Below, piece after piece: positions 7,122-34,148 of a stretch of DNA of 34,268 nucleotides. Position 1 is the stretch's first letter. Every line of letters begins with the position of its first letter. Below the pieces are notes generated by a model. That model worked only from the letters and a program-made list of their open reading frames with translations. It did no database searches and was not told where the DNA came from. Location of the stretch: NCBI GenBank assembly GCA_905235565.1, contig CAJOLR010000018.1, positions 1 through 34,268 of the forward strand. Direction: 5' to 3'. The stretch is from an uncultured Bacteroidaceae bacterium (lineage in GTDB: Bacteria; Bacteroidota; Bacteroidia; Bacteroidales; Bacteroidaceae). The position numbers and the translations under genes were made by a program.

Positions 7122-7264
7122 AATAAAAATGATACAAAGGTCTGAGTTTCCCTAAAAAGGTTGACTCGGATTGCAGCCTACGTCTCCCCCAACCCAATTC
7201 GCCACAAATCAACCCCATTTTACCACAATTATAAATTATATATACTATTAGTATCATTATGAAC

Positions 7265-20034: not shown

Positions 20035-20042
20035 CAAAGTTA
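20035..20042 (-). promoter_or_regulatory. -7 promoter box (TAACTTTG) for the DUF3108 gene
   Basis: On the minus strand TAACTTTG matches TAnnTTTG 37 nt before the ATG. Its upstream edge touches the palindromic repeat at 20042-20083. No TTG sits at 19-21 nt, so the repeat does not provide a normal -33 in this direction. Confidence 0.5.
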
Positions 20043-20083
20043 AAAATGATACAATTGGGGGCAGCCCCCTTTTGTACTATTTT
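20042..20083 (+). repeat. Dispersed palindromic element, copy R1
   Basis: A 42-bp imperfect palindrome: left arm AAAAATGATACAATTGGGGG, right arm CCCCCTTTTGTACTATTTT. It is a hybrid copy with a GTATCA-type left arm and a GTACT-type right arm. It lies between the divergent DUF3108 and aminopeptidase genes, and its right arm supplies the -33 TTTG of the aminopeptidase promoter. Confidence 0.9.
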
Positions 20084-20102
20084 GATTAAAATCGTATCTT
20101 TG
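20071..20102 (+). promoter_or_regulatory. Promoter of the aminopeptidase gene, -33 inside repeat R1
   Basis: TTTG at 20071-20074 and TATCTTTG at 20095-20102 are separated by exactly 20 nt, matching Bacteroidetes sigma-70-type promoters. The -33 box is part of palindromic repeat R1. The ATG follows about 25 nt after the -7 box. Confidence 0.75.
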
Positions 20103-20127
20103 AGACAAATTACTAATTCTATTAACT

Positions 20128-21519
20128 ATGCTTTTTGACGCTAAGACATACGCCAGCCGCAGAGCTGAACTGAGAGATAAGGTCAGCAGCGGCCTGATTA
20201 TCCTTCTGGGCAACAACAACGCCCCGTGTAACTACCCAGCCAACGGCTACACATTCCGCCAGGACAGTTCTTTCCTTTATTTCACAGGCCAGGATCGCGA
20301 TGCTCTGGCTCTCGTGATTGATGCCGACAGCGGTCAGGAGTGGCTTCTGGGCGATGACATTGATATTGAAGACATTATCTGGACCGGATTCGTTCCGTCG
20401 GTGGCCGATCTGGCCGCGGAGTGCGGTATCTCAAACAGCGCTCCGTTCTCTAAGTTGGCAGATATGGTGGCCGATGCCCGCAAAGCAGGCCGCAAGGTGC
20501 ATTTCCTGCCGCCCTACCGCCACGACCACATGATCCTGTTGTCCGATATGCTGGGCATCCATCCTCTTAAGACCCGCGATGCTGCATCGGTCCCTCTTAT
20601 TAAAGCTGTGGTGAGCATGCGCTCCATCAAGTCCGATGCCGAGATTGCCGAGATTGAGCGCGCCATGGCTATAGGCTACCAGATGCATACCGCTGCTATG
20701 AAATACTGCAAACCGGGCGTGACCGAGAAGTCCATCGGTGGCATAATGGAGGGAATAGCACACACCTACGGAGCCAAGGTATCGTTCAACAGCATTGTAT
20801 CCATGCACGGCGAGATTTTCCACGGAGACCCGTCGCTCAAGCAGCTTGAACCAGGCCGCCTGCTGCTGGTTGATGCCGGTGCCGAGACTGTGAACAACTA
20901 CTGCAGCGACAACACCCGCACCATGCCCATCAGCGGCAAATTCACACAGAAACAGCGCGATATCTACTCAATCGTGGAGGCCTGCCACGACCTTGTGATA
21001 GAGAAAGCCCGCCCCGACTACAAATGGATGGATATGCACCTGGACGTATGCCGCCTCATGACAGACCGCCTCAAGGACCTTGGCCTGATGAAGGGCAACA
21101 CCGATGATGCCGTAGCTGCCGGAGCGCACGCCATGTTCCTGCAGCACGGTCTGGGCCACATGATGGGTATGGACGTGCACGATATGGAGGGCCTGGGCCA
21201 GATCTACGTCGGTTTTGACGATGAAGTAAGGCCTTCTACGCAATTCGGCACCAACTGCCTGCGCTGCGGCCGCCGCCTCCAACCCGGTTTCGTAATGACC
21301 GATGAGCCCGGCATCTACTTCATCCCCGCCCTGATCGACAAATGGAAGGCCGAAAAGATGCACACCGACTTCCTGAACTACGACAAAATCGAGCAGTACC
21401 GCGACTTTGGCGGCATCCGCCTGGAGGACGACATCCTGATCACCCCTATCGGCTGCCGAGTGCTTGGTGCCGACATCATCCCCTACCATCCGGATGATGT
21501 GGAGGCATTCATGAGCTGA
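20128..21519 (+). CDS. M24B Xaa-Pro aminopeptidase (PepP-like)
   Basis: A 463-residue cytoplasmic metallopeptidase that removes N-terminal residues preceding proline. An N-terminal creatinase-like domain (about 1-165) precedes the pita-bread catalytic domain. The dinuclear metal ligands are visible: D249 (LLLVDAGAE), D261 (YCSDNTRT), H344 (QHGLGHMMG), E393 (TDEPGIYF) and the Glu of GGIRLEDD near the end. The length fits the PepP group. The gene is transcribed alone from a promoter whose -33 half lies in a dispersed repeat, and it ends facing the feo operon. Confidence 0.93.
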   Translation: MLFDAKTYASRRAELRDKVSSGLIILLGNNNAPCNYPANGYTFRQDSSFLYFTGQDRDALALVIDADSGQEWLLGDDIDIEDIIWTGFVPSVADLAAECGISNSAPFSKLADMVADARKAGRKVHFLPPYRHDHMILLSDMLGIHPLKTRDAASVPLIKAVVSMRSIKSDAEIAEIERAMAIGYQMHTAAMKYCKPGVTEKSIGGIMEGIAHTYGAKVSFNSIVSMHGEIFHGDPSLKQLEPGRLLLVDAGAETVNNYCSDNTRTMPISGKFTQKQRDIYSIVEACHDLVIEKARPDYKWMDMHLDVCRLMTDRLKDLGLMKGNTDDAVAAGAHAMFLQHGLGHMMGMDVHDMEGLGQIYVGFDDEVRPSTQFGTNCLRCGRRLQPGFVMTDEPGIYFIPALIDKWKAEKMHTDFLNYDKIEQYRDFGGIRLEDDILITPIGCRVLGADIIPYHPDDVEAFMS

Positions 21520-21576
21520 AGTCTGCAGGTTTTAATCCCCGAACTTTTTGGGGGTATTGACGTCAAAACTACGGCC

Positions 21577-21723
21577 TTAAAGTTTTCCTTCTTTTTTGCA
21601 GAATCCGGAAACAGGACAACCGCAGCAGGAGCAGCCTTTGCGGCGGTTACGATGGATGCTGAATAACGCTGCTAATGCCAGTAGCGCTATTATTATGATT
21701 GCGATTATTGTGGAAGCGTTCAT
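21577..21723 (-). CDS. FeoB-associated Cys-rich membrane protein
   Basis: A 48-residue protein starting at the ATG whose first bases overlap the FeoAB stop (ATGA, 21723-21720). A longer frame with an upstream start exists but would lie inside feoB. One N-terminal membrane helix (about residues 5-22, IIAIIIIALLALAALF) is followed by a basic turn (HRNRRKG) and a Cys cluster (CSCCGCPVSGFC), five cysteines within twelve residues. This is the layout of the small proteins regularly encoded after feoB, thought to assist Fe(II) transport much like FeoC. The cluster may bind iron; that is inferred. Confidence 0.85.
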   Translation of the reverse strand: MNASTIIAIIIIALLALAALFSIHRNRRKGCSCCGCPVSGFCKKEGKL

Positions 21724-24080
21724 AGTACGGCCGATGCAATTAAGTAGCCAAGCCAGGCAACCACCCAGGCAATTGCGCACTGGAATATTACAACGTATAT
21801 GGCCCAGCGGTCACCAAGCTCGCGGCGGATGCTGCTCACTGCGGCCACGCAAGGTGTATAGAGCAGGCTGAAAAGCAGCATCGGAACAGCAGTCACAACG
21901 GTCAGCGACCCGGTCACGCCCAGCACCTCCATTGTGGCAACCACGCTCTCCTTGGCCAGGAATCCGCTCACAAATGATGTCACGATGCGCCAGTCGCCCA
22001 GACCCAGCGGGCGGAACAGCGGCTCCAGCACACCGGCCACCCAGGCCATCATGGAGCCCTCGCCGTCCTGGACCATGTTGAACCGGAAATCAAACGTCTG
22101 CAGCAACCATATCACAATGGTGGCCACAAAGATTACCGTGAACGCACGCTGGCAGAAATCCTTGGTCTTGTCCCAGAGCAGATGGCTCACATTCTTGAGT
22201 CCAGGCATGCGGTAATTGGGCAGCTCCATCACAAACGGCGCAGCCACGTAATTCTTGTGGAACAACTTGGTAATCAGCGCCACAAGTATGCCCACAAGTA
22301 TTGAGAGCAGGTACAGTCCGGCCAGAATCAGGCCGCCCTTACCCGGGAAGAACGCATTGGTAAAGAATCCGTAAATGGGAATCTTGGCGCTGCAGCTCAT
22401 GAACGGAGTGAGCAGGATTGTCAGCTTTCGGTCACGGGCCGATGGCAACGTCCTGGTGGCCATCACAGCCGGCACGGAACAGCCAAAACCGATGAGCAGA
22501 GGCACTATGGAACGTCCCGAAAGACCTAACTTACGCAGCAGCTTATCGGTCACAAAAGCTATGCGGGCCATGTAGCCGCTGTCCTCAATCAGACTCAGGA
22601 AGAAGAACAGGATTATAATAATAGGTACAAAGCTCAGCACGCTGCCAACGCCGCCGAAAATGCCGTCCTCAACAAGCGATACTATTGCGGGGCTGACATC
22701 GGCCCGCTCCAAACCGGCCACACAAATGCCTGCCAGCCACTGGATTCCCTGATCCAGCCAGTCCTGCAACGGAGCGCCCAGCACATCTATTGACAGCCAG
22801 ATTACCAGGCACATAACAACCAGGAAAATAGGGATTGCGGTCCATCGGCCGGTCAGAATGCGGTCAATGCGGCGGCTCCTGACATACTCCCTGCTCTTCT
22901 GCGGCTTGACCACCGTCTGTGAGCACAGGCGCTCAATGAACGAGAAGCGCATATCGGCAATGGCGGCTACGCGGTCCATGCCACGCTCCTCCTCCATCTG
23001 CAGGATTATGTGCTCCATCATCTCCTTCTCGTTCTGAGTAAGTCCCAGAGCCTCCAGGACGGTATCATCGCCCTCCACCAGCTTGCCTGCCGCGAACCGG
23101 CCCGGAATGCCGGCGCGCTCGGTATGGTCCTCAACCAGAGGCATTATGCTGTGCAGGCAGCGGTGAACAGCGCCGCCGTGATCATCCTTGGTGCAGAAAT
23201 CGGTACGTGCCGGAACCTCCTGATACTCTGCCACATGAATAGCATGCTCCACCAGTTCCTGAATACCCTCGCCCTTGGCGGCCGATATCGGTATCACCGG
23301 AATGCCCAGGATGCGCTCCATCTCATTGACGCGGACCGATCCGCCATTACCCGTCAACTCATCCATCATATTGAGAGCCAGCACCATAGGAACGCCCAGC
23401 TCCATCAGCTGAACCGTCAGATAGAGGTTGCGCTCAATGTTGGTGGCATCCACAATGTTGATGATGCAATTGGGCTTCTCATCCAGAATAAACCGTCTGG
23501 AAACCGTCTCCTCCTGAGTATAAGGAGACAGCGAATAAATGCCCGGAAGATCGGTTACAACCGTATTCGGGTGCCCCTTTATCCGTCCGTCCTTGCGGTC
23601 CACAGTCACGCCAGGGAAATTACCCACATGCTGATTGGACCCCGTAAGCTGATTGAACAAGGTAGTCTTGCCGCAGTTCTGCTGTCCGGCCAGCGCAAAC
23701 CTCAACGTGGTACCCTTAGGAAGAGCATTCTCATGCGTATGATCATGGTACTTTCCGGCCTCACCAAGTCCGGGATGCGAGTTATGCTCGTGTAGCGTCA
23801 GATTGTAACCGAAATCAGAGTCCGATATTGAAGCAGGCGGTGCAATTGGGGACTGTCCCCTTTTGTACATTTCTATCCGGGCAGCCTCCTCAAGGCGCAA
23901 AGAGAGTGTGTATCCGCGCACCAGCAGCTCCATCGGATCGCCCATCGGTGCAAACTTAAGCAGCTTCACCTCCACACCAGGCAGCAAACCCATATCCAGA
24001 AAGTGCTGACGCAAGGCGCCCTCACCTCCAACTGCCTTAACCACAGCACTCTCACCAATCTTCAGCTCACGTAAAGTCAT
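21720..24080 (-). CDS. feoB: FeoA-FeoB fusion ferrous iron transporter
   Basis: A 786-residue protein importing Fe(II) across the inner membrane. Residues 1-71 form a FeoA (SH3-like) domain. A linker (72-125) follows, then the FeoB GTPase domain with G1 GQQNCGKTT (132-140) and the DLPG motif (177-180), and a membrane domain with nucleoside-transporter-like gate repeats (SGRSIVPLLIGFGCSVPAVM and a later pair). FeoA-FeoB fusions are usual in Bacteroidetes. The linker is odd in two ways: residues 72-79 (YKRGQSPI) are encoded by a copy of the dispersed palindrome, and residues 97-116 contain six histidines (LHEHNSHP...KYHDHTHEN) that could bind metal. The small Cys-rich gene overlaps its stop. 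The promoter carries two strong dyads. Confidence 0.96.
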   Translation of the reverse strand: MTLRELKIGESAVVKAVGGEGALRQHFLDMGLLPGVEVKLLKFAPMGDPMELLVRGYTLSLRLEEAARIEMYKRGQSPIAPPASISDSDFGYNLTLHEHNSHPGLGEAGKYHDHTHENALPKGTTLRFALAGQQNCGKTTLFNQLTGSNQHVGNFPGVTVDRKDGRIKGHPNTVVTDLPGIYSLSPYTQEETVSRRFILDEKPNCIINIVDATNIERNLYLTVQLMELGVPMVLALNMMDELTGNGGSVRVNEMERILGIPVIPISAAKGEGIQELVEHAIHVAEYQEVPARTDFCTKDDHGGAVHRCLHSIMPLVEDHTERAGIPGRFAAGKLVEGDDTVLEALGLTQNEKEMMEHIILQMEEERGMDRVAAIADMRFSFIERLCSQTVVKPQKSREYVRSRRIDRILTGRWTAIPIFLVVMCLVIWLSIDVLGAPLQDWLDQGIQWLAGICVAGLERADVSPAIVSLVEDGIFGGVGSVLSFVPIIIILFFFLSLIEDSGYMARIAFVTDKLLRKLGLSGRSIVPLLIGFGCSVPAVMATRTLPSARDRKLTILLTPFMSCSAKIPIYGFFTNAFFPGKGGLILAGLYLLSILVGILVALITKLFHKNYVAAPFVMELPNYRMPGLKNVSHLLWDKTKDFCQRAFTVIFVATIVIWLLQTFDFRFNMVQDGEGSMMAWVAGVLEPLFRPLGLGDWRIVTSFVSGFLAKESVVATMEVLGVTGSLTVVTAVPMLLFSLLYTPCVAAVSSIRRELGDRWAIYVVIFQCAIAWVVAWLGYLIASAVL
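23843..23868 (+). repeat. Dispersed palindromic element, copy R2 (core, inside feoAB)
   Basis: The core CAATTGGGGACTGTCCCC followed by TTTTGTAC lies inside the FeoA-FeoB linker coding region. The outer arms are mostly lost. It stays open in the coding frame, giving YKRGQSPI. Confidence 0.85.
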
Positions 24081-24088
24081 TACCTCGC

Positions 24089-24108
24089 TAATTTTGCCTG
24101 CAAAATTA
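24089..24108. promoter_or_regulatory. Perfect 9-2-9 palindrome over the feoAB -7 box
   Basis: TAATTTTGCCTGCAAAATTA is a perfect palindrome around a CT centre. Each half contains TAATTTTG, so a -7 box can be read on both strands. The minus-strand copy (24108-24101) is correctly placed for feoAB. It could be an operator for an iron-responsive repressor; the regulator is unknown. Confidence 0.55.
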
Positions 24109-24131
24109 CTCCATTAAAATAACAGAGCCAA
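24101..24131 (-). promoter_or_regulatory. feoAB promoter
   Basis: On the minus strand, TTG (24131-24129) and TAATTTTG (24108-24101) are separated by 20 nt, as in Bacteroidetes promoters. The ATG follows 20 nt after the -7 box. Confidence 0.65.
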
Positions 24132-24154
24132 TACTCACAAGTGAGTAAAGGCTC
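24125..24154. promoter_or_regulatory. Symmetric 30-bp dyad over the feoAB -33 box (operator candidate)
   Basis: The site reads GAGCC-AA-TACTCAC-AA-GTGAGTA-AA-GGCTC: two perfect arm pairs (5 and 7 bp) with AA spacers at every junction. It overlaps the -33 TTG of the feoAB promoter. It does not look like a classic Fur box. As RNA or DNA it could also form a hairpin. Confidence 0.5.
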
Positions 24155-24169
24155 CAATTGCGTTGATTT

Positions 24170-24205
24170 AGTACAATTGGGGTCTGCCCCCTTTTGTATC
24201 ATTTT
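24170..24205 (+). repeat. Dispersed palindromic element, copy R3
   Basis: Left arm AGTACAATTGGGG, right arm CCCCCTTTTGTATCATTTT: a hybrid copy with GTACT-type left and GTATCA-type right arms. Its right edge runs into the stop codon of the guaA fragment (24204-24206). Confidence 0.88.
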
Positions 24206-24593
24206 ACTCCCACTCGATGGTGCCGGTTGGTTTCGGAGTGAGATCGTACAGCACGCGGTTTACGCCCGGAACCTCGGTGATGATGCGCTGGGTAATGTGG
24301 TGCAGCAGCTTGTACGGAATCTCCTCGATGGTTGCAGTCATAGCGTCGCGGGTATTGACCGCACGTATTATTACCGGCCAATCCCAGGAGCGCTTGTTGT
24401 CCTTGACGCCCGTTGACTTGTAATCTGGAACGATGGTAAAGTACTGCCAAACCTTGCCTTCAAGGCCGTTAGCAGCAAACTCCTCACGCAGGATTGCGTC
24501 CGATTCACGCAGAGCCTCCAGACGGTCACGTGTAATTGCGCCGGTGCAGCGCACACCCAGGCCCGGGCCCGGGAACGGCTGACGATAAACCAT
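24204..24593 (-). pseudogene. guaA: guaA 3' fragment (GMP synthase C-terminal domain)
   Basis: The 129 residues from MVYRQPFPGPGLGVRC to the final PTGTIEWE are the C-terminal dimerisation domain of GMP synthase. The full enzyme is about 510 residues, with a glutaminase domain and an ATP-pyrophosphatase domain ahead of this point. In-frame homology seems to extend two residues upstream (Asp-Asn) and then meets a stop codon at 24608-24606. The sequence before it is unrelated leader of the next gene. The fragment is therefore cut off cleanly just before the dimerisation domain and cannot make GMP by itself. Its reading frame is undamaged, so the event is recent, or this is an assembly junction. 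A complete guaA must exist elsewhere if the organism makes GMP this way. Confidence 0.82.
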
Positions 24594-24635
24594 ATTGTCC
24601 TGTAGTCATATGATTTCTGTTTTTAAATGAATTGA

Positions 24636-25976
24636 TCAATAATAATTTATCACCCTGGTAACATAATTCTGGAACGATACTTCCTTATAACCCAGGGGAG
24701 GTATATCCTCCTGTCGGTCCAACCAGTTATGATGCTCAGAGTCATAGAAGTACTGAGGATACTTTTCCATAGTCACAAAATCCAGATCCTTATACTGGAC
24801 CTGACGCTCCGACAAGTCACGGTTATAGTTATAACTGCACGTATACCAATCTATTGCAAGATGTTCCAGGTCACTGCCGCTGCGGCTGATGAACTTAACC
24901 GGAACCATACGGTGCACATTCTTCAGGAATTCGTATGTCCCCCTCTTCATCTCCACCTTATATAACATTCCGTTCTGAGCATAAGAGCTTCTTGTCACAT
25001 TGCCTGCACTGTAACTGGGCAGCAGCATATTGTCAGAATCGGCCCCCTTGAAATAATCATAACTTACTGTCATCACGGTGTCCTGCAGCACGATAGGTTC
25101 ATCCTCACTTGTCCTGGGCCTCTTCCATCGGATCACATTGATCTTAAGAATCAGGTTCTCAAACACATATGAGCGGTCCTCACCAAAAGCGAAATCCCCA
25201 TCGTAACGCACCAGATGGACCGATGACAAATCAGGCACAATCATGCCCGTCATATCCTCGGCGGCCGGATCGGGATCGTTCCAACCGCTGGCGTCATATG
25301 CCACAAACATGCCTGTATTATCGTATTCATACCTGCTGTTGCGCACCTCAACCCCGCCCGACACGGTAACACTGCATGACAGCCTGTGATTGGCATCATC
25401 ATACGTATAAGTATGCGTTGTGTCAAATCTGGCAAACTCCATATCGGTCACCTCACTTTGGGTCAGGTTACCGCGCTCATCAAATCGGTACAAGGTCTGT
25501 CTGTTTGGGTTCTTACTCTGCGTCACGGCCATATCCTTAACCTTTCCGCGCAAGCCAATGCGCTGTCTTACGGTACGCTTCCAGTACATGGTCTCAAACC
25601 ACGCCTCGCCCGCTTTCTGGCTAATCTTGTAGACCCTCTCATTGGTGCCCGATACCAGCACTATTGCCGTATTCCTGTCCGATGACGTCACGTTTTCGTC
25701 CACCCTGACATGTATGGTATCCCTGCCGGGGCCGCCGCCCTGCTTGGAAATGTGGCACCAGGTGCCATCCTTTGAAACCTTCGCTGTCCATTCCGCATCG
25801 GTCACGATGTATAATACCGTCGAGTCCGGAACGCACTCCAGCTTGCGTATCGAAGAGTCCGTCACCACATCTATCTTAATCTCATCAATCAGAACCTCAG
25901 CACCACGGTCACAACCCACCGAAACCAGTCCGTAGACCAGTCCTGCGGCAATAGCGGCTAACACTGAAAATCTCAT
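24636..25976 (-). CDS. BACON-domain lipoprotein of unknown function
   Basis: A 446-residue putative lipoprotein (signal ending LVSVGC, Cys at about 22). Residues 45-118 look like a BACON domain, the Bacteroidetes carbohydrate- or mucin-associated Ig-like module: DAEWTAKVSKDGTWCHIS, a Gly-rich turn, RDTIHVRVDENVTSSDRNTA and VYKISQKAG. The rest (about 120-446) is rich in Tyr, Asp and Arg with patterns such as LYRFDERGNLTQSEVTD and YEYDNTGMFVAYDASG, reminiscent of YD/RHS-like beta strands, but I cannot name the family. It is surface-exposed by inference. It stands alone, with adenylate kinase divergent and a guaA fragment behind it. Confidence 0.7.
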   Translation of the reverse strand: MRFSVLAAIAAGLVYGLVSVGCDRGAEVLIDEIKIDVVTDSSIRKLECVPDSTVLYIVTDAEWTAKVSKDGTWCHISKQGGGPGRDTIHVRVDENVTSSDRNTAIVLVSGTNERVYKISQKAGEAWFETMYWKRTVRQRIGLRGKVKDMAVTQSKNPNRQTLYRFDERGNLTQSEVTDMEFARFDTTHTYTYDDANHRLSCSVTVSGGVEVRNSRYEYDNTGMFVAYDASGWNDPDPAAEDMTGMIVPDLSSVHLVRYDGDFAFGEDRSYVFENLILKINVIRWKRPRTSEDEPIVLQDTVMTVSYDYFKGADSDNMLLPSYSAGNVTRSSYAQNGMLYKVEMKRGTYEFLKNVHRMVPVKFISRSGSDLEHLAIDWYTCSYNYNRDLSERQVQYKDLDFVTMEKYPQYFYDSEHHNWLDRQEDIPPLGYKEVSFQNYVTRVINYY

Positions 25977-26000
25977 ATCCGGATTTTTGAATTATTTCTA

Positions 26001-26008
26001 CAAACTTA
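26001..26008 (-). promoter_or_regulatory. -7 promoter box (TAAGTTTG) for the BACON lipoprotein gene
   Basis: TAAGTTTG on the minus strand fits TAnnTTTG 24 nt before the ATG. No matching -33 TTG was found. Confidence 0.4.
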
Positions 26009-26124
26009 CTAAAGATTATCGAGTCAGTCACCCCATCGGCACAAAAAGTTTTTATGGATTTTTATAACAGTACATACCGCATAAATACTTAATTTCGCAC
26101 CCAGATAGAACCAAAAAACATAAT

Positions 26125-27108
26125 ATGAAATACTACATCCTATTCGGCCCTCCAGGGGCAGGCAAAGGCACTCAGGCAGGTGCCATATCACAGAAATATA
26201 ACCTTAAGCACATCAGTACCGGAGAGATGCTGCGAGCAGAGATTGCCGCCGGCACGGATCTTGGCAAGCAGGCCAAGGAGCTTATCGATGCCGGAAATCT
26301 GGTACCCGACAGCGTTGTCGAGGGCATGATAGAGAGCACATTCAACAATAACAAGGACGTAGCCGGATTCCTGTTGGACGGATTCCCCCGCACCCTTGGC
26401 CAGGCATCCGATCTGGACGAGATGCTGGCCCGCCGCGGCGAGAAGGTGAACGCCGTCATCTCCATCATGATCAAGGACGAGACCATCAAGCAGCGCATCC
26501 GTCACCGCGCCGAGATCGAGGGCCGTGCCGATGATGCCAATGAGGAGACCATCAACAACCGCATATCGACCTACCACAAGCAGACAGAGCCGCTTATAAC
26601 CTATTATAAAAACGCCGGAAAGTATCACGAAGTAGACGGTGAGTGCGGAGATATTGAGGCCGTACGCAAGGCCATGTTCCGCGTGTTCAAGGGCATCGAC
26701 CGTAAGTTCATGGAGCGTCAGGTGGTACTTGATGACTCACTGCTCGATAAGGTTCAGATGCTGGCCCAGGAGTCACCGCGTCTGCGCATGAATTACGATC
26801 TGCGCAACAGTGAGGATGACCAGAGTCAGCGTATGCTCAACGTAATGCTGCCCGGCACCCACACAACTATCCACAAGCACAACCTGTCCAGCGAGACCGT
26901 GATGCTTATGCGCGGCCGCATGGATACCGTATTCTATAATAACAAGGGCGTAGAGATGCAGCGCATCCACATGGGTGGCGATACCGGAGTATTCGGCGTC
27001 AACATCCCCAAAGGCCAGTGGCACACTTTCGAGGTCTTTGAACTGAGCATCATCTTCATGGCTCAGGACGGACCTTGGTCTCCCCTGGCAAAAGAGAACA
27101 TGCTCTAA
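26125..27108 (+). CDS. adk: Adenylate kinase fused to a WbuC-type cupin
   Basis: A 327-residue two-domain protein. Residues 1-191 are a complete short-form adenylate kinase: P-loop GPPGAGKGT (8-16), ISTGEMLR, LLDGFPRT (83-90) and a short lid (RAEIEGRADDANEET) without zinc cysteines. Residues about 196-327 match the WbuC family of cupin metalloproteins found in surface-polysaccharide clusters, with likely metal ligands H250, H252, E257 and H300 (TTIHKHNLSSETVML and PKGQWHTFE). Adenylate kinases of this type normally stop near residue 190. The join is smooth (KGIDRKFMERQVVLDD), and the internal ATG at 26710 could be the old cupin start. The first part interconverts ATP, AMP and ADP; the cupin role is unknown. 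A polysaccharide locus lies immediately downstream on the other strand. Confidence 0.92.
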   Translation: MKYYILFGPPGAGKGTQAGAISQKYNLKHISTGEMLRAEIAAGTDLGKQAKELIDAGNLVPDSVVEGMIESTFNNNKDVAGFLLDGFPRTLGQASDLDEMLARRGEKVNAVISIMIKDETIKQRIRHRAEIEGRADDANEETINNRISTYHKQTEPLITYYKNAGKYHEVDGECGDIEAVRKAMFRVFKGIDRKFMERQVVLDDSLLDKVQMLAQESPRLRMNYDLRNSEDDQSQRMLNVMLPGTHTTIHKHNLSSETVMLMRGRMDTVFYNNKGVEMQRIHMGGDTGVFGVNIPKGQWHTFEVFELSIIFMAQDGPWSPLAKENML

Positions 27109-27110
27109 AC

Positions 27111-27152
27111 AAAAATGATACAATTGGGGGCTGTCCCCTTTTGTATCATTTT
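27111..27152 (+). repeat. Dispersed palindromic element, copy R4
   Basis: A 42-bp copy with both outer arms of GTATCA type (AAAAATGATACAATTGGGGG and CCCCTTTTGTATCATTTT). It begins 2 nt after the adenylate kinase stop. The stem followed by T-runs could act as a terminator for the converging genes. Confidence 0.92.
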
Positions 27153-27155
27153 GGC

Positions 27156-27197
27156 AAAACAGTACAAAAGGAGGACTGTCCCCTTTTGTACTGTTTT
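27156..27197. repeat. Dispersed palindromic element, copy R5
   Basis: A copy with both arms of GTACTG type (AAAACAGTACAAAAGG and CCTTTTGTACTGTTTT, a perfect 16-bp match) around AGGACTGTCC, where one A is bulged. It sits in tandem 3 nt after R4 and ends on the stop codon of the Wzz gene. Because AAAAGG replaces AATTGG on the left, its direction cannot be read. Confidence 0.92.
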
Positions 27198-28315
27198 TAT
27201 GCTTTAAACTGCTCTTTCAATTTGGGAAGGTAGCCGCGGGCCAGAACAATACCGCAACCCAGAACAACGCCAAAGAAAGTCCAGACTATCAGAGTCTTAG
27301 CGCGGCTGTTTGAGGGTTTATCCGGAACTGTCACGGGCTGTATTATGGTCAGCACCGGAGTATCGCGCTTAACCTGCAGTTTGGCCTGCTCCAGCTGCTT
27401 GGCCAACTCGCTGTAGATAGCATTCGCGGTATTGTATTTGGACTGGATACGGTCACGCTCAATCCTATCCTTGGTATTGGTCACGTTCTGGGTCCTGTCA
27501 GTAATACGGGCCAGCTGCTCCTGATACGTCTCGGTCTCCATCTTGATCTCATCATAACGCGCCTGGATATACTCCAGCTCACTCTCGGACTTCTCTATAC
27601 GGAACCTGGTAATCTCCTCCTGCAGTAACTGCTGTGCCTTGAGTGCCAGCTCGGCCGTCTGTATGGGCTCCGATCCGTTCACGTTTAGGGTAATGTAACC
27701 CTCCTTCTTATCCACTGCCAATGATACGTTCTCGGCCACAACCTTAAGGATCTTGACCTCATCATTGGACAGCAGCAGCGGCTTGGGAGTATCATTGCCA
27801 TTGACCGATACAGGCAGCTCCAGATCCGGTTCCTCCTTACGTATAGCGCCCAGAATCACACCCGGCAGACCAATGGTATACTTCTTGATGTTACCCATCA
27901 CGGTAGGCTTGGCAATCTCGGTTGCATAGGTGAACATACTCACCGCGGTATCCACCTCCGCATAATGCAACGGAGTATACATCAACTCCTTACGGAATGG
28001 AACACTGTTTACAATCTGAGGATAGATAAGCGGTGAAAGTTCGGCCCCGGTGGAACCGGAACTCAGATCAATGCCAGCAAGCGATGCCAGACTGCTCAGC
28101 GACGAACTCTTGCTTGAACCCACCTGCGCCACCATCACAGTGCTCACGGAGTATGTACGTTTCATGGTGAGTGCAGCCACAAATCCCAGAACAATGAACG
28201 CGCACGTCCAGATGATGATGGTCTTTCGGCCGTCCCACAGCTGTTTTACCAGCGACATTATGTCTATGCCCTCCTCATCGTCCATAAGGGGAGCGTTGTT
28301 CATATCTTCCTGCAT
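27197..28315 (-). CDS. Wzz-family polysaccharide chain-length determinant
   Basis: A 372-residue inner-membrane polysaccharide co-polymerase. There are two membrane helices at about 33-52 (IIIWTCAFIVLGFVAALTM) and 345-364 (TLIVWTFFGVVLGCGIVLA), with a large periplasmic part containing coiled-coil helices (about 215-315). The conserved Pro-rich stretch before the second helix (VTVPDKPSNSRA) is typical. No C-terminal tyrosine kinase is fused, so the kinase, if any, is elsewhere. It sets the length of exported polysaccharide together with the Wza-like protein encoded immediately upstream (one-base gap). An alternative start four codons in (MNNAPLMDDE) is possible. Confidence 0.9.
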   Translation of the reverse strand: MQEDMNNAPLMDDEEGIDIMSLVKQLWDGRKTIIIWTCAFIVLGFVAALTMKRTYSVSTVMVAQVGSSKSSSLSSLASLAGIDLSSGSTGAELSPLIYPQIVNSVPFRKELMYTPLHYAEVDTAVSMFTYATEIAKPTVMGNIKKYTIGLPGVILGAIRKEEPDLELPVSVNGNDTPKPLLLSNDEVKILKVVAENVSLAVDKKEGYITLNVNGSEPIQTAELALKAQQLLQEEITRFRIEKSESELEYIQARYDEIKMETETYQEQLARITDRTQNVTNTKDRIERDRIQSKYNTANAIYSELAKQLEQAKLQVKRDTPVLTIIQPVTVPDKPSNSRAKTLIVWTFFGVVLGCGIVLARGYLPKLKEQFKA

Positions 28316-28316
28316 A

Positions 28317-30986
28317 TTACTGAAGTCTGTCTATCAAGATAATAAGTGATAAAACCGATGTCAGGGTAGAGATTGACTGGTTCATAGTATTGCTCCAGTT
28401 AACCTTCTCCTTGGGAGTATCCAGCTTCTCACGCTTCTCGCGGTCAATGCTCACGGTAATCACACCGCCCGGCTGAACGGTCGGATATCGGCGTATGCCC
28501 AGGAAACCGCGCTTTGTGCCGTCGGTCTGATAGTTGGGCATGGTCACAGTCACGCTGTTCTTGTTGGCCACTTTCTGGAAACCGCCAGCGTAATGACGTA
28601 TATACCAGGCTGCATTGTGGCTACCATGATAAACCATGGTCTTGCTGGATGCGCTGAACTCATCGGGCACATACTGACCCATACGGGTTCCTATCTCGCG
28701 GATAATCACAATATTCTCCTGACGCCCAATGTTTATCACATCACCGTCCATCATAATCAGGTCGGCATTTAACTTACCCTTATTGCTCTTGGTATCCTTA
28801 AGGTTAATGCCGATGCTGCCGCGACCTTTCTGAGTACGGAACACGCGTGCGTAAGGATCGGCATCATCAAGCAATCCGCCAGCCATCTCGATAATCTCCC
28901 AGAGTTGGGTCTTGTTGTCATCCAGCAAATACCTGCCGGGAAACTTGACGCGGCCGTATATCTCAACGGTACGGCCGAAAGTAAAGTCCGGAGTCATGCG
29001 GACCACGATCTGGTCAAACGGCTGCAGCTGGAAATCACCCTTGGGATTGTAATCCTCATCCACCTCAAGCGTAATCTGGTCCAATGATGATTTCTTGTCC
29101 GATATGTTCACGCGGAACACCTCCACGCGGTCATACGCGGCACCCACCTCAAAGCCGCCTGCCATGGTGAGCAGGTCATGCACTGTGAGCGACGGATCAT
29201 ATGTTGTGCCGAACGGATTCTTGACGGCGCCGTTAACACGCACTTCGCCGGCGTTGGTGTATGTGGTGTTATCGTATACATTCAACTGGTCGCCCGGCTG
29301 GAGTTCCTTGTCAAGGTCATTATCGAGCGAGATTGTGATATACTCCATCTTGGCGGGATTCTCCAGATTCTTGCGGAAAATGTAAGCCACCGGATATACA
29401 CTGGGCTTCAGACCGCCTGCATACTCAATGGCCTGCCCCACCGTCATGCGGTCGTTAAGGCCGAATGTGCGGCTGAAAGGCTCACGCACCTGGCCGTTCA
29501 CGCTGATTGTAGCTACATCACGGTATGCCGACTGCTGCAGCACCCTTACAACATCACGTGCCTGGAGTTCAAAATCGGCGTTGCCGTTCTCTCCGGGGAA
29601 CGGCACTGTCAGCACCTCCACTGTCTCATCGGACTTGGTACGCTCCACAAACACAAAGTCTGTCTTGGCTGTGTATCTGGGCTTGGCCTTCTCAATCAGA
29701 GCCTGCAGGCTGCTGTTGCCCTCCAGGTCATAATTGCCGCCATAGTAAACATCGCCGTTAATGGCCACGTAATTCTCCATCGGCACATTTGACTTATGTA
29801 TACGTACTGCATCTCCGTTACGCAGGTCAACCGTCTGCTTGCCGTTCATTACATCGGCCAGGTTGAACTCCAGATACTTTCGCTCACCGTTCTCGTAGCG
29901 CTCCACCTGAACGTAGTCCATGTAGGCGTTGTAAACCAGGCCGCCTGCATACTGGATCAGTTCCTTCAGGCCCTCGCCCTGAACCAACTCGTAACGCATG
30001 GGGCGGTTAACGGCTCCACTTATGCTTACAATGTTCTGTGCTACAGGTACAAACAGCACATCGCCGTTCTGCAGGTCATACTGAATCCTGGGGTCCGGGT
30101 TGGTCATGTAAGTGTACAGGTCCAGACGGCTGGTCTTGCCGCCGCGGCTCAGCTGAATGTCACGGACTGAACCTATCTCACGCGGACCTCCGGCAGCTGC
30201 AATGGCGTTGAATACCGAATTCAGGGCTGAAAGGGTGAAACCGCCCTGCACACCCACCTCACCGTAAATGCTCACCTGGACGGTACGGGCGGTGGTGATA
30301 GTCACTGCAATCTGATCTTTGCGGAAAGAGTAATGCAATGACAGTTTGGATATTATAGCCTCGCGGGCCTGAGCCATGGTCATGCCCTTAAGGAAAATCT
30401 TGCTCGATCCTGCCGGCTGTATGGAACCGTCGGCCGATATGCGCTGATGTATCTCGGTCTGTGACGATCCGAATATCGAGATGTGCACCTCGTCGCCCTC
30501 GCCCAGCACGTATGTATCGGGAGCCTGGGCACCGTCGGTTGTGCGGAACACATCCATTGACTTGCCGGTAAACAGGGAGTGGCCGTATATGTCGTTACCC
30601 TCGGTGGCCGAAACGTTATTCTCGGCAAGAGCGGTCTCCAGAGCAGCCTCTGCGGCAACTTCACCGTTGGTTGACTGCGGGACATCGACAGTTGCTGTTA
30701 CGACCTCAGCACCACCGGTTGCAGCAGCGGCGGGGTTCGTATCGGCCGCATTCTTCTCGGCCTGCATCTTGTTCAGGATTGCCATCACACGGTCCTGATA
30801 GTTAGCGTATTCCGTGGGGGAAATGTTGTCCACATCAATACCCTCCTCCATCAGGCGCGTCCTGACCTCGGTCTCATTAAGTCCTCTCTTCTGCAGCTCG
30901 GCCTGAGCCATAGCCATCATTGAAGCACTCTGTGCATACGCCATCATCGGCAAAAAGGCAAGCAAAACTGCCAGCAGTTTCTTCAT
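28317..30986 (-). CDS. Wza-like SLBB-domain polysaccharide export protein
   Basis: An 889-residue exported protein (signal peptide about 1-18, AYA|QS). After a helical region and a low-complexity Ala/Glu/Thr stretch (about 75-130), a polysaccharide export domain begins (TYVLGEGDEVHISIFG), followed by some five or six SLBB repeats (for example VSIYGEVGVQGGFTL, SINGQVREPFSR-like and VEIYGRVKFPGRYLL). Near the C-terminus is a hydrophobic segment (ISTLTSVLSLIILIDRLQ). This is the long multi-SLBB form common in Bacteroidetes, forming the outer-membrane export channel with the Wzz partner. Its promoter uses a -33 TTG inside palindromic repeat R6. Confidence 0.93.
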   Translation of the reverse strand: MKKLLAVLLAFLPMMAYAQSASMMAMAQAELQKRGLNETEVRTRLMEEGIDVDNISPTEYANYQDRVMAILNKMQAEKNAADTNPAAAATGGAEVVTATVDVPQSTNGEVAAEAALETALAENNVSATEGNDIYGHSLFTGKSMDVFRTTDGAQAPDTYVLGEGDEVHISIFGSSQTEIHQRISADGSIQPAGSSKIFLKGMTMAQAREAIISKLSLHYSFRKDQIAVTITTARTVQVSIYGEVGVQGGFTLSALNSVFNAIAAAGGPREIGSVRDIQLSRGGKTSRLDLYTYMTNPDPRIQYDLQNGDVLFVPVAQNIVSISGAVNRPMRYELVQGEGLKELIQYAGGLVYNAYMDYVQVERYENGERKYLEFNLADVMNGKQTVDLRNGDAVRIHKSNVPMENYVAINGDVYYGGNYDLEGNSSLQALIEKAKPRYTAKTDFVFVERTKSDETVEVLTVPFPGENGNADFELQARDVVRVLQQSAYRDVATISVNGQVREPFSRTFGLNDRMTVGQAIEYAGGLKPSVYPVAYIFRKNLENPAKMEYITISLDNDLDKELQPGDQLNVYDNTTYTNAGEVRVNGAVKNPFGTTYDPSLTVHDLLTMAGGFEVGAAYDRVEVFRVNISDKKSSLDQITLEVDEDYNPKGDFQLQPFDQIVVRMTPDFTFGRTVEIYGRVKFPGRYLLDDNKTQLWEIIEMAGGLLDDADPYARVFRTQKGRGSIGINLKDTKSNKGKLNADLIMMDGDVINIGRQENIVIIREIGTRMGQYVPDEFSASSKTMVYHGSHNAAWYIRHYAGGFQKVANKNSVTVTMPNYQTDGTKRGFLGIRRYPTVQPGGVITVSIDREKREKLDTPKEKVNWSNTMNQSISTLTSVLSLIILIDRLQ

Positions 30987-31014
30987 ATCGTTATCGTTAT
31001 ATATTATTTTAATG

Positions 31015-31045
31015 CAAAAATACTACATTATCCCAAATGATACAA
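31015..31045 (-). promoter_or_regulatory. wza-like gene promoter, -33 inside repeat R6
   Basis: On the minus strand TTG (31045-31043) lies exactly 20 nt before TATTTTTG (31022-31015), matching TAnnTTTG. The TTG belongs to the arm of repeat R6. The ATG follows 28 nt after the -7 box. This gives the export genes a promoter separate from manA-manC. Confidence 0.65.
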
Positions 31046-31074
31046 CTGGGGACAGTCCCTTTTTGTATCATTTT
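31035..31074 (+). repeat. Dispersed palindromic element, copy R6
   Basis: A 40-bp copy with two GTATCA-type arms (AAATGATACAACTGGGG and CCCTTTTTGTATCATTTT). On the minus strand its AAAATGA provides the last Lys codon and the TGA stop of the guanylyltransferase gene, so the element forms the end of that gene. Confidence 0.92.
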
Positions 31075-32138
31075 GCAGAAAACTCCTTGATACGCTGCTC
31101 TTCGGAACGCTTGCAAACCAGGAGTTGTCCGTTTTTCTCAGATACGATATACCCGTCCAACCCCTGAAGGACCACCTTTTTCAGACCTTCCGCATGAACA
31201 ACGCAATTACTTGACTCATAAAAGCTTATATTACCGACCGATGCATTATTGCAAGCATCCTTCTGCAACTTCTCATGCAGCGACTGCCAGTTCCCCAGAT
31301 CACTCCACCCAAAATCCGCCGGACAGGTATACACCTTCTTATCGGCCGATGCCGGCTCCATCACCGCATAATCAATCGAAATCTTCTCACACTGCGGGAA
31401 AATCTCCAGAACGGTACCATTAGGAACGGTTGACTTCGTCGAAATAAACCTTCCGTTTGGTACCATCTTATCCATTTGCGCTGCAAGATCCGGCTTATAT
31501 AATCGGATTGATTCGGTTATTGTCCTCACGTTCCACACAAAAATCCCTGCGTTCCAAAGGTAATTTCCATCGGCCAGATACCTCTTGGCAGTATCCAGAT
31601 CCGGTTTCTCCTTGAACGCCTCCACCTGAATGATACAATTGGGGACAGGCCCCTTTTGTACTGTTTTCACATAACCGTACCCTGTTTCGGGCCGGTTTGG
31701 TTTAATGCCGATGGTCACGATCTTGTCATGCCCTGCTGTGAATTCCAATGCGCCCGATATCACGCGCCTGAACTCCTCGGGGTTCATCACCACCGCATCG
31801 CTGGGGGTTACCACCACGTTTGCATCGGCATCCTCCTGCCTGATGCTCCAGCACGCCCAGGCAATGCACGGGGCCGTGTTTCGGGCAGCAGGCTCGGCCA
31901 GAATATGAGCCGATGGAATACCGGGAATCTGCTCCTTTACAATATCCACATAGTCCTTATTGGTCACCACCCAGAAATTCTCCGGTGGGCAGATACCCTT
32001 GAACCGGTCCACAGTAAGCTGTATCAAGCTCCTGCCACAACCCAGAATATCAATAAACTGCTTAGGAAACTCCGGGGTACTGAGCGGCCAGAACCTGCTC
32101 CCGATACCCCCAGCCATAATTACCACATGATTCGCCAT
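31068..32138 (-). CDS. manC: Mannose-1-phosphate guanylyltransferase with repeat-encoded insert
   Basis: A 356-residue nucleotidyltransferase making GDP-mannose from mannose-1-phosphate and GTP. I start at the ATG at 32138 (MANHVVIMAGG), which has the signature GGIGSRFWPLS; a longer frame runs into manA and is not credible. EKP (177-179) and GIFVWNV-type motifs are present. The usual PSDH is PSDA here (T111-PSDA). There is no C-terminal isomerase domain; isomerase is the separate upstream gene. Residues 158-170 (KTVQKGPVPNCII) are encoded exactly by palindromic repeat R7, inserted between GYGYV and QVEAFKEKP, a variable loop in this family. The stop codon is contributed by repeat R6. The gene starts 4 nt after the manA stop. 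Confidence 0.92.
   Translation of the reverse strand: MANHVVIMAGGIGSRFWPLSTPEFPKQFIDILGCGRSLIQLTVDRFKGICPPENFWVVTNKDYVDIVKEQIPGIPSAHILAEPAARNTAPCIAWACWSIRQEDADANVVVTPSDAVVMNPEEFRRVISGALEFTAGHDKIVTIGIKPNRPETGYGYVKTVQKGPVPNCIIQVEAFKEKPDLDTAKRYLADGNYLWNAGIFVWNVRTITESIRLYKPDLAAQMDKMVPNGRFISTKSTVPNGTVLEIFPQCEKISIDYAVMEPASADKKVYTCPADFGWSDLGNWQSLHEKLQKDACNNASVGNISFYESSNCVVHAEGLKKVVLQGLDGYIVSEKNGQLLVCKRSEEQRIKEFSAK
31629..31667 (+). repeat. Dispersed palindromic element, copy R7 (inside manC)
   Basis: A 39-bp copy with a GTATCA-type left arm (AATGATACAATTGGGG) and a GTACTG-type right arm (CCCCTTTTGTACTGTTTT). It occupies exactly 13 codons of manC in frame. All bases agree with the family consensus apart from one in the centre, so it is not decayed. 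Confidence 0.93.
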
Positions 32139-32142
32139 ATCA

Positions 32143-33192
32143 TCATTTTTCGGTTTTTCTGAAAGTCTGCCAGAACCATCGACGTATAATTCCACGTTTC
32201 TGATTATCGATAAACGCGTCCAGAACACGGGTGGAAGCACCCATCGGCTCAATATCGTAATTTGCAATCGCCGCCGGAATAAGGCAGCTGTAGCCCTCCT
32301 TAAGCACGATTCCATCACCCGTCTCCCTAATCCTGATCCTGCAGTCGCCTTTAAGACACATAGTTATAATGAAACTGTCATACTTCTTGAGGTCCCTGTG
32401 AAAACGTTGTCCGATGTCCGTAACGCGGGCGCTGAAAAAAGCCGTCTCCACCACCCTGTTGGCATGATTTGACTTGACTGAATATGCGGTCCTGTACCTG
32501 CTCTCCACCTTATAGTTAAGAGCCTTAGCCGCCAGTTCGGTATGCAGCTGACGCGGTTTTCCGTCCAACCCCGGACGGTTATAGTCATATATTCTGTAAG
32601 TTACGTCCGATGATTGCTGAATCTCGGCCAGCATAATTCCGCCGCAAATGGCATGAACCCGGCCCGCCGGGATGTAAAAAACATCGCCCGCATGAGCCTC
32701 ATGACGAGCCAGTGCATCGGTGATTGTACCGTCCTGAACCATCCGCTTGTACTCATCGGCCGCAAGTGATTTCCCGAAACCGGAATAAATGCACGCACCG
32801 GGCTCAGCATCAATGATATACCACATCTCGGTCTTGCCGTTCTTGCCGTGCTCGCGCTGCGCCATCGCATCGTCGGGATGCACCTGGATTGAAAGGTCCT
32901 TCTGAGCATCAATAAACTTGACCAGCAGCGGCATTTTATCGCCATGATGCCTGGCAACCGCCTTGCCAAGAATCTCCTCTGGGGCCGATGCCACCACCTC
33001 CGGCAGAGTCCGTCCGGCCCAGACACCATTAGCCACCACGCTTGGCGAACTATCAACAGCGCTCACCTCCCAGCTCTCTCCCACATGGTCCTGCTCAGTC
33101 AGTCCCTTCCAACGGCACAGCCTGTCGCCTCCCCACACTATCTCATGCAGGTTCGGCTCAAACAACATCGGATACAAAAGCGCTCTCTCCAT
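32143..33192 (-). CDS. manA: Type I mannose-6-phosphate isomerase
   Basis: A 349-residue zinc cupin-type isomerase converting fructose-6-phosphate and mannose-6-phosphate. Zinc ligands are visible: Q103 and H105 (SIQVHPDD), E122 (GKTEMWYII) and H180 (PAGRVHAICGG). The early motif WGGDRL is typical of the Bacteroidetes/Firmicutes form. It is the first gene of the manA-manC pair that feeds GDP-mannose; the intermediate phosphomannomutase is not in the window. The gene has its own leader with a -7 box. Length is normal and both ends look intact. Confidence 0.93.
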   Translation of the reverse strand: MERALLYPMLFEPNLHEIVWGGDRLCRWKGLTEQDHVGESWEVSAVDSSPSVVANGVWAGRTLPEVVASAPEEILGKAVARHHGDKMPLLVKFIDAQKDLSIQVHPDDAMAQREHGKNGKTEMWYIIDAEPGACIYSGFGKSLAADEYKRMVQDGTITDALARHEAHAGDVFYIPAGRVHAICGGIMLAEIQQSSDVTYRIYDYNRPGLDGKPRQLHTELAAKALNYKVESRYRTAYSVKSNHANRVVETAFFSARVTDIGQRFHRDLKKYDSFIITMCLKGDCRIRIRETGDGIVLKEGYSCLIPAAIANYDIEPMGASTRVLDAFIDNQKRGIIRRWFWQTFRKTEK

Positions 33193-33200
33193 TCTGCCCG

Positions 33201-33208
33201 CAAAGATA
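33201..33208 (-). promoter_or_regulatory. -7 promoter box (TATCTTTG) for manA-manC
   Basis: TATCTTTG on the minus strand lies 8 nt from the manA ATG, so the leader would be extremely short. The upstream -33 position reads TGTG, a weak match. Confidence 0.4.
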
Positions 33209-33260
33209 CAAAAATGCTAACAAAGGGCACAGTTACGTTTGGAACTATAATCACATTGTA

Positions 33261-34148
33261 CTAGACAATGGCTTTTTTAATAGAGTCCACAATATACCTG
33301 ACATCGTCATCACCCACGCATGGACCGGTTGGCAGGCACATTCCAATCCTGAACAGAGACTCACTTACTCCATTGATGTATGCCACGCTTGATGCTGATG
33401 TCTGACAGACTGTCCCGCTTGGCATTTTTTCAGTCTTCAAATCTCCATTTTCAATTGTACGGCAGTAAACCGGCTGTTTGTGCATGGGTTTCCATAGCGG
33501 GCGGGCCTCTATCTGGGCTTTGTTCAAAAAATCCCTGAGCGCTTCCACGTTATCGTTTGGCTGACAATCTGTAATGGCCGATGAGGCTGTATGGATAACT
33601 CCGGCCACACCGCCCACAGCACCTGCCACCATGATCTTGTAGGCATTCTCCTGCCCTACAATTCTTACCGATGGATCAATCGTTATGGTGCTGAGCCAGA
33701 AGTTGGAGTCATACCGGCTGTCCGGATTGTCATGTACCTTAATGCCAGGCACATCTTTCAACAAATCCTTGTACAAAGCCTGCACATGCTTATGATGAGC
33801 AATGTGGTCATTCAGTACTGTCATCTGTCCACGGCCAATACCGGCACATATATTACTCATCCGGTAGTTATATCCTATATTCTCGTGCTGGTAATAAGGA
33901 TAGTTTTCACGGTACTGTGTTGCATACATCATTACTTCACGCCACTCATCGGCATTGGCTGTGATGAGTGCGCCGCCACCGCTTGTGGTAATCATCTTGT
34001 TGCCGTTGAACGATAGCACTCCATATTTTCCGAATGTACCCAATGCCCTGCCGTTCCAAAGGCTCCCCAAACCCTCGGCTGCATCCTCTACCACAGGTAT
34101 TCCATATCGGCTGGCAATCTCCATTATCCTGTCAATCTGATATGGCAT
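33261..34148 (-). CDS. DegT/DnrJ/EryC1-type sugar aminotransferase, N-terminus missing
   Basis: A 295-residue remainder of a PLP-dependent nucleotide-sugar aminotransferase; full members have about 370-400 residues. The PLP-binding lysine is in SFNGNKMITTSGGG, and VVEDAAEGLGS holds the cofactor-ring Asp. The C-terminal domain (SESLFRIGMCLPTGP) is complete. Upstream of the nominal ATG the frame continues with VPVTLYG, a proper family stretch, then loses similarity and reaches a TAG at 34217-34215. About 100-120 residues, including the phosphate-binding GTAA-type loop, are missing, so this copy is probably inactive. A different open frame occupies 34165-34267 on the same strand. The family is clear; it would have made an amino sugar for the adjacent polysaccharide. 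Confidence 0.82.
   Translation of the reverse strand: MPYQIDRIMEIASRYGIPVVEDAAEGLGSLWNGRALGTFGKYGVLSFNGNKMITTSGGGALITANADEWREVMMYATQYRENYPYYQHENIGYNYRMSNICAGIGRGQMTVLNDHIAHHKHVQALYKDLLKDVPGIKVHDNPDSRYDSNFWLSTITIDPSVRIVGQENAYKIMVAGAVGGVAGVIHTASSAITDCQPNDNVEALRDFLNKAQIEARPLWKPMHKQPVYCRTIENGDLKTEKMPSGTVCQTSASSVAYINGVSESLFRIGMCLPTGPCVGDDDVRYIVDSIKKAIV

Follow-up and report, generated by a model that had tools for sequence, protein, structure and literature searches.

A stretch of 34,268 nucleotides (nt) from an uncultured Bacteroidaceae bacterium (positions 1 to 34,268 of contig CAJOLR010000018.1, assembly GCA_905235565.1; hereafter, the window) contains seven copies of a 41-bp palindrome which, judging from sequence comparison, are very probably repetitive extragenic palindrome (REP)-like non-autonomous elements dispersed by a RAYT, that is, a REP-associated HuH/Y1 transposase of the IS200 superfamily. 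This interpretation is based on the following: (i) the same hairpin brackets RAYT genes in ten species, and the bracketed RAYTs form one clade; (ii) the copies are many, the genomes searched have them in this genus alone, and their positions tend to be concentrated around the RAYT; and (iii) hairpin type and copy number track the RAYT, the copies are placed at gene ends, and empty sites exist in manC and feoAB orthologues. An earlier description of the window made from its letters alone (hereafter, the original prediction) had compared the layout with that of REP elements moved by RAYTs, a comparison borne out by the hairpins that bracket IS200-type RAYT genes in ten related species.

Distribution of the hairpin and its association with RAYT genes

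A covariance model of the hairpin, termed R1, was built from 14 copies of the genome to which the window belongs (G000), all seven window copies included. The number of candidates scored was 150 for G000 (of 966), 61 for 64 relatives outside the genus, 150 for 37 genomes of the host genus, and 20 per genome for 301 genomes of the family; counts obtained with the model take in both strands of the palindrome (strand-wise matches). In G000, an assembly of 2.2 Mb and 91 contigs, 28 distinct R1 places are found at E <= 0.001, and 30 at E <= 0.01. Seven of the 28 are on the window contig, which makes up 1.6% of the assembly. The search of genome and relatives proposed in the original prediction thus disposes of the concern, raised there, that only the seven copies might exist. 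R1 is matched in 25 of the 37 genus genomes and in none of the 64 relatives outside the genus. Similarly, 13 of the 301 family genomes match at E <= 1e-5, all of them of the host genus (to which 21 genomes of this sample belong, leaving about 280 outside). Copies fixed at identical sites across distant species, the other outcome that had been named as unfavourable, do not appear outside the genus in these two samples; within it the concern partly applies, and some copies must be old and fixed, because the manC site at position 31629 is occupied by the R1 type in 9 of the 17 loci examined.

Related hairpins do exist outside the genus: weak R1 matches (E 8.5e-5 and up) adjoin RAYTs there, for instance at loci L213, L247, L248, L267 and L269 (58 of 80 loci searched). 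Two of these, L267 and L269, are RAYT-like fragments in a metagenome-assembled genome (MAG) named only as a bacterium and in a Caldisericia MAG, with weak R1 matches on both sides (E about 2e-4 to 7e-3); hairpins like R1 may flank such distant RAYTs.

The association with RAYT genes was examined with one genome per species of the genus. Forty loci with a Y1_Tnp domain were gathered, 39 from the genus and one (L128) from another genus of the family, and 35 proteins were used; L121, L125, L127 and L129 were left out for want of a frame by motif, and L124 because it is cut. A locus was regarded as R1-flanked when it had an R1 match at E <= 0.001 near both gene ends, or near a single end not cut by the end of the contig. 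Ten of the 35 loci qualify (L091, L093, L094, L098, L099, L108, L109, L110, L113 and L114), nine of them on both sides, while the tenth, L099, starts at a contig end; the flanking matches of L108 are weak (36 and 31 bits). The Y1-transposase gene flanked by the same hairpin, as the original prediction recommended to look for, is therefore present in ten genomes of the genus, one gene in each. In the tree of the 35 proteins the ten R1-flanked RAYTs form one clade (branch 100/100), and the R1-flanked label needs a single change on the tree versus a mean of 8.9 for shuffled labels, with 0 of 500 shuffles as low. Copy number follows the same division: the ten genus genomes with a RAYT at least 80% identical to the R1-clade RAYT have 67 to 154 strand-wise R1 matches, and the 12 genomes of the genus without any R1 match have no RAYT above 41% identity to it. 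The contigs of the RAYT-bearing relatives belong to Bacteroidales or Bacteroidaceae MAGs, with sheep, horse, water buffalo or red deer in some of their names.

The R1-clade RAYT matches Pfam Y1_Tnp above its cut-off (E 9.6e-13), and its best NCBIfam family is REP_Tyr_transpos, at 53 bits, below the cut-off of 80 of that family. An alignment of nine R1-clade RAYTs and the only RAYT found in G000 shows the HuH motif NHVH together with YIHQNP (YVHQNP in one of the ten). For 13 of 36 pairs, those aligned in register, the ratio of nonsynonymous to synonymous substitution (dN/dS) is 0.12-0.20, which points to purifying selection; the other 23 pairs were dropped as out of register owing to a one-residue indel or a wrongly set start. 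A phmmer search for a solved close relative gave none under E 0.1, its best rows being transposases at E 0.17-0.18.

Other RAYT lineages have other hairpins (hairpin types at RAYT flanks, in close pairs, and at the feoAB and manC sites were classified by eye). Hairpins of the TACCAAAC[AG]GAACCGTCCCCAATGGTA type, whose ends are common with R1 while the middle differs, flank the sister protein, L116. Further RAYTs of the genus have different hairpins, many of them with GGGGAC or GGGGTC cores, and the same is true of several RAYTs of Prevotella, Muribaculaceae and Bacillota MAGs (24 loci viewed). A second RAYT clade of the genus (L097, L100, L107, L118) has GACGCAAAGGGGTCGTTT hairpins; four genomes have between 13 and 69 pattern matches each.

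Copies tend to be crowded near the RAYT genes. For the R1 clade, five of the ten RAYT contigs (about 659 kb) were read whole, close pairs were merged and the copies flanking the RAYT were dropped: of the 70 sites that remained, 39 are no more than 10 kb away from the RAYT, versus 11.5 expected. For the GACGCAAAGGGGTCGTTT family, counted as genome-wide pattern matches with one mismatch allowed, the RAYT contig holds 15 of 69 matches in G002 (a 10-kb contig; 3 flank the RAYT), at least 13 of 55 in G012 (5 flanking), 8 of 36 in G018 (4 flanking) and 5 of 13 in G016 (4 flanking). A third family, CACAAAGGGGACGG..., has 14 of its 94 matches in G013 on the 49-kb contig of its RAYT (4 flanking). The seven copies of the window are all no more than about 13 kb away from where the RAYT is found in relatives, and this fits the clustering of copies near RAYTs. 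The window's own copy count proves little, because this finding was picked for its many copies.

The 41-bp unit and its placement relative to genes

All seven copies were recovered between 20.0 and 31.7 kb at the positions originally given. They had been described as 42-bp palindromes; the imperfect palindrome stands, and the measured unit is 41 bp, because conservation in 125 distinct copies from the loci gathered reaches from -20 to +20 around the centre and is at most 0.3 bits per position from 21 nt outwards. The symmetrised letter counts of these copies give the consensus AAAA-[TC][GA][GA]TAC[AC]A-WW-GGGG-NCWGN-CCCC-WW-T[GT]GTA[CT]...TTTT. Of the 250 element ends, 124 read GTATCA and 124 read GTAC plus two letters. 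The inner WW is AA/AA, or TT/TT on the opposite strand, in 85 of the 125 copies, and a small internal loop in the fold results from this. The exact core, CAATTGGGG-N(2-8)-CCCCTTTTG, occurs five times in the window versus none in 100 dinucleotide shuffles; the remaining two copies are variants, namely the copy at 31035 (CAACTGGGG...CCCTTTTTG) and that at 27156, a near-perfect palindrome without CAATTGGGG (CAAAAGGAGGACTGTCCCCTTTTG). By RNA folding, all seven window copies fold (ten folds, three copies on both strands), at -11 to -23.8 kcal/mol and z-scores of -2.2 to -8.0.

All seven elements are given on the plus strand. Element 1 (20043..20083) is found between two divergent genes, a DUF3108 gene and an aminopeptidase P gene. 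Element 2 (23834..23874), with a decayed left arm, lies within the FeoA-FeoB linker and is read in frame on the minus strand. Element 3 (24165..24205), upstream of feoAB, begins at the stop codon of an open reading frame (ORF) for the C-terminal part of guaA on the minus strand. Elements 4 (27112..27152) and 5 (27156..27197) form a close pair between the convergent adenylate kinase and Wzz genes: element 4, the first half, starts 3 nt past the adenylate kinase stop, and element 5, the second half and the near-perfect palindrome mentioned above, is at the wzz stop codon. Element 6 (31034..31074) gives manC, on the minus strand, its TGA stop codon. Finally, element 7 (31627..31667) occupies what is here called site A of manC, in frame, where it encodes about 13 residues (KTVQKGPVPNCII).

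No copy was found by the covariance model in the first 20 kb, as the original prediction held, and the sole other window row of that search, at position 9954, is at chance level (E 0.24). The doubtful half-site that had been noted at 7126 was rejected, as it gives no model match even at E <= 10. No Rfam family reaches its gathering score in the window. A phage carrier was also considered and discarded: one variant of the core, searched by exact match in viral contigs, gave none. As for the surrounding sequence, the guaA ORF (24204-24593, minus strand; 129 aa) has the GMP synthase C-terminal domain alone and lies downstream of a BACON-domain ORF. None of the neighbouring ORFs has the remainder of guaA, so that the gene looks split or broken, or the contig rearranged. 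An ORF at 18162-19178 (minus strand) contains runs of short repeats rich in GCC/CCG.

Gene placement was assessed with a simple ORF caller on 100 copies (93 on the five RAYT contigs plus the seven in the window). Only 18 are inside ORFs versus 87 expected, and 82 are outside versus 13 expected; the intergenic copies lie between tandem (56), convergent (18) or divergent (8) genes. A total of 68 copies start between 20 nt before and 60 nt after a stop codon, versus 4.9 expected. Frames of at least 150 codons end near 75 of 198 element sides, and in 28 of these 75 the element itself provides the stop codon, TGA or TAG (shorter frames at element sides may be due to chance).

This placement is what would be seen if the palindromes were plain intrinsic terminators acting in both directions, which recombination had multiplied and selection had preserved, with the RAYT neighbourhood being incidental. 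Besides the abundance of copies near stop codons, the A-tract, G+C-rich hairpin and T-run have the make-up of a terminator, 5 of the 7 window copies are terminator-like by consensus (20 such sites in all versus 11.5 expected from shuffles), and the end of guaA bears other hairpins instead in some relatives. More precisely, among nine loci with a visible guaA end, R1 is present in G000 and G021, other hairpins in G012, G018, G016 and G009, and neither of them in G024, G031 and G029. However, the 18 copies inside ORFs, some of them in frame in manC and feoAB, are not expected of terminators, the conservation of sequence over 41 bp far exceeds what a terminator needs, and the elements bracket one RAYT clade, with no genome outside the genus matched. 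An origin as plain terminators is consequently highly improbable, while a terminator role as a side effect is possible.

If the elements are instead dispersed by the RAYT, as preferred here, the known biochemistry of the family suggests that the RAYT would bind the hairpin on single-stranded DNA, cleave it and re-join it elsewhere, often nearby. Copies would then persist chiefly where they are harmless or helpful: right after stop codons, the hairpin and T-run could end transcription; in protein loops, the element may simply be read in frame.

Sites shared across species and the manA-manC locus

Some sites are shared by several species of the genus. At manC site A (17 loci), the R1 type is present in nine (G000, G021, G002, G022, G005, G023, G006, G018 and G010), a different hairpin type in G013 and G008, and no element in six. 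At a second place in the same gene, site B (31410..31467 in the window, minus strand), the R1 type is present in 8 of the 16 loci read and no element in five; the other types are those of G013, G011 (the sister type, with a weak R1 match of 33.9 bits) and G000, where the window has what appears by eye to be a decayed hairpin of the GGGGACGGTTC type. The feoAB linker was readable in 29 of 30 loci: nine have the R1 type, G018 a similar core with other arms, G013 and G008 another type, and 17 none. Element-free orthologues of both manC and feoAB exist, therefore. In 8 of 10 genomes (G023, G022, G005, G002, G006, G013, G008 and G011), the hairpin type in manC is that flanking the manA-linked RAYT of the same genome.

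Such a pattern can be given both by ancestral presence followed by a later change of type and by repeated insertion at permissive sites. It is also tentatively possible, though rather doubtful, that the fixed in-frame sites (manC A and B, and the feoAB linker) have their hairpins rewritten in place when the specificity of the resident RAYT changes, each site keeping an element of the type recognised by the local RAYT at the time, via conversion or via excision and re-insertion at the same spot. The empty sites bear, in addition, on the idea that a regulator or a nucleoid protein binds the palindromes and that they are kept at gene ends for that function. Strong conservation over 41 bp would suit a binding site, but the element is missing from the feoAB linker in 17 of 29 loci and from manC site A in 6 of 17, there are in-frame copies in protein loops, and 12 of the 37 genus genomes have no model match; this idea is scarcely credible.

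In relatives, the RAYT is located upstream of manA, the phosphomannose isomerase gene (32143..33192 in the window, minus strand), which is followed there by manC (ORF at 31068..32318, minus strand; real start near ORF residue 61), presumably a mannose-1-phosphate guanylyltransferase, as named from its motifs. manA is present in the RAYT loci L091, L093, L094, L098, L109, L110, L113 and L114, as well as beside the sister L116. By coordinates, the RAYT of G018 is about 2.3 kb from manA, and those of G013 and G008, which are more diverged, are less than 1 kb from it; G012 has its RAYT at the beginning of one contig and its manC on another.

The window has no Y1/RAYT transposase gene, as originally reported. 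Upstream of manA there is a gap of about 68 nt (33193..33263, minus strand), the spot that in relatives holds the RAYT together with its elements; no RAYT is there, and next comes a DegT-family gene. A RAYT lying just beyond the contig end was rejected as an explanation on account of this gap and of the DegT-family gene next to it. Only letters resembling TAGTACAAT, such as an element has at its left end, are left in the gap, at most a weak hint of a former element. The DegT-family aminotransferase ORF (33261-34148, minus strand) matches only positions 126-285 of the 360 of its profile; a partial ORF at the place where relatives have their RAYT hints at a local rearrangement. The single Y1_Tnp match in G000, L130 (contig 6, G000:C6, 982-1779), is 52% identical to the R1-clade RAYT and is flanked by a different long palindrome with ACACATTGGGGACGG, not by the R1 hairpin. 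With no cognate RAYT found in G000, and none at the usual place next to manA, the seven window copies probably represent an orphaned cluster that remained around a former RAYT gene.

Several observations weigh against dispersal by the RAYT. Regarding the association itself, some RAYTs outside the R1 clade have one-sided or weak R1 matches: L112 (35 bits, one side), L106 (29 and 21 bits), L115 (38 bits, one side, 430 nt off), and L116 and L100 (about 23 bits). Regarding the crowding, it is modest within contigs (random-centre fractions 0.036, 0.10, 0.14, 0.045 and 0.14), the five regions tested are orthologous, and the GACGCAAAGGGGTCGTTT family is also dense away from its RAYT, with 9 matches on contig 116 of G002 and, in G018, 9 on contig 2 versus the 8 of the RAYT contig. 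Seven of the 25 copy-bearing genomes (G027, G009, G007, G020, G010, G015 and G000) have 54 to 143 strand-wise matches but no R1-clade RAYT, a situation in which assembly gap and loss look alike. The copies of G000 have a mean of 10.4 of 12 outer pairs (19 of 28 places measured) versus 8.9-10.6 in RAYT-bearing genomes; hence, the idea that they are decayed relics is unsupported. In G021 and G018, manC has a hairpin of another type than the one that flanks the RAYT. Close pairs of elements (18 distinct, spaced 42-46 nt) are only partly like REPINs, with 10 inverted, 4 direct and 4 unclear, and single copies are common. Lastly, no movement of the elements was seen in the genomes compared.

This last point would equally suit miniature inverted-repeat transposable elements (MITEs) of some other, classical transposase, some of which the RAYT merely picked up in its flanks. 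Short inverted-repeat elements in many copies are typical of MITEs. Nevertheless, RAYTs of different lineages go with different hairpin types, and multi-copy hairpins of their own, dense at their own RAYTs, accompany other RAYT clades in the genus. These comparisons leave the MITE explanation with a minimal probability.

Relation to described repeats and significance

The palindromes are a real RAYT-linked REP-like family in gut Bacteroidales, of a known kind, with published precedent for nearly every trait. In a literature search of open papers, neither this 41-mer nor REPs of this genus were found in print. In the broad sense of a RAYT-associated REP-like repeat, the hairpin flanks the RAYT in 10 of 35 loci, not in G000, and many dispersed, mostly non-coding copies are present (28 places in G000; 82 of 100 outside ORFs).

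The closest descriptions are two. First, the TIRtron/TIRYT repeats (Di Nocera et al. 2013, PMC3733652) are, like R1, non-GTAG repeats that flank RAYT-like HuH/Y1 genes; they often occur as dimers or in clusters, and some genomes have families of them elsewhere. The GGGGWSAS motif, common to some but not all of those repeats, is also present in the R1 family: either strand reads it in 166 of 172 copies, although GGGG was demanded by the search pattern and hence only WSAS is put to the test. What differs is the sequence and the host, both of which are new here, as the relevant sections of that paper have neither this 41-mer nor gut Bacteroidales. Second, the TnpA(Y1) subclass 2.6 (PMC6006769) comprises Bacteroidetes RAYTs with NH[LIV]H and YIH[QN]NP, atypical hairpin flanks without GT[AG]G, and copies elsewhere in the genome; R1 would belong to it by its RAYT motifs and Bacteroidetes host. 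The GTAG-tagged REPs and REPINs (PMC3116915, PMC2817692, PMC3686654) have in common with R1 a cognate RAYT and close pairs. In contrast, R1 lacks GT[AG]G at the hairpin foot (4 of 172 copies versus a background of 7.3%), its unit is a near-symmetric hairpin, and its pairs are neither the sole form nor always inverted.

Precedents also exist for how the copies are distributed. REP termini are reported to supply stop codons and REPs to be located at gene ends (PMC3733652), orthologous RAYTs have differing REP classes (PMC3686654), and REPs are present where the RAYT may have been lost (PMC3686654, PMC3733652). In Thauera, new REP copies form preferentially near rayt (PMC2817692), and two Xanthomonas species have different REPs at nearly the same position in recB (PMC3733652). 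Rickettsia palindromic elements and intragenic REPs (PMC3733652), like R1, are palindromes read inside genes; what sets R1 apart is that its cognate transposase lineage has been identified and that the manC and feoAB sites hold different hairpin types across one genus.

As for its meaning, the finding makes possible a genus-wide comparison which brings together a REP family, a RAYT clade, sister RAYTs with other hairpins, species whose genomes yielded no such RAYT, and shared in-frame sites. Two open questions become testable in this way, that is, (i) the joint change of REPs and RAYTs; and (ii) the in-place replacement of repeats at fixed sites. For genome annotation, caution is advisable, inasmuch as these palindromes give genes stop codons and additional protein loops. 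The turnover of hairpin types at fixed in-frame sites is the aspect of most specialist value: if in-place rewriting were true, a bacterial gene would bear a species-specific peptide loop matched to its transposase.

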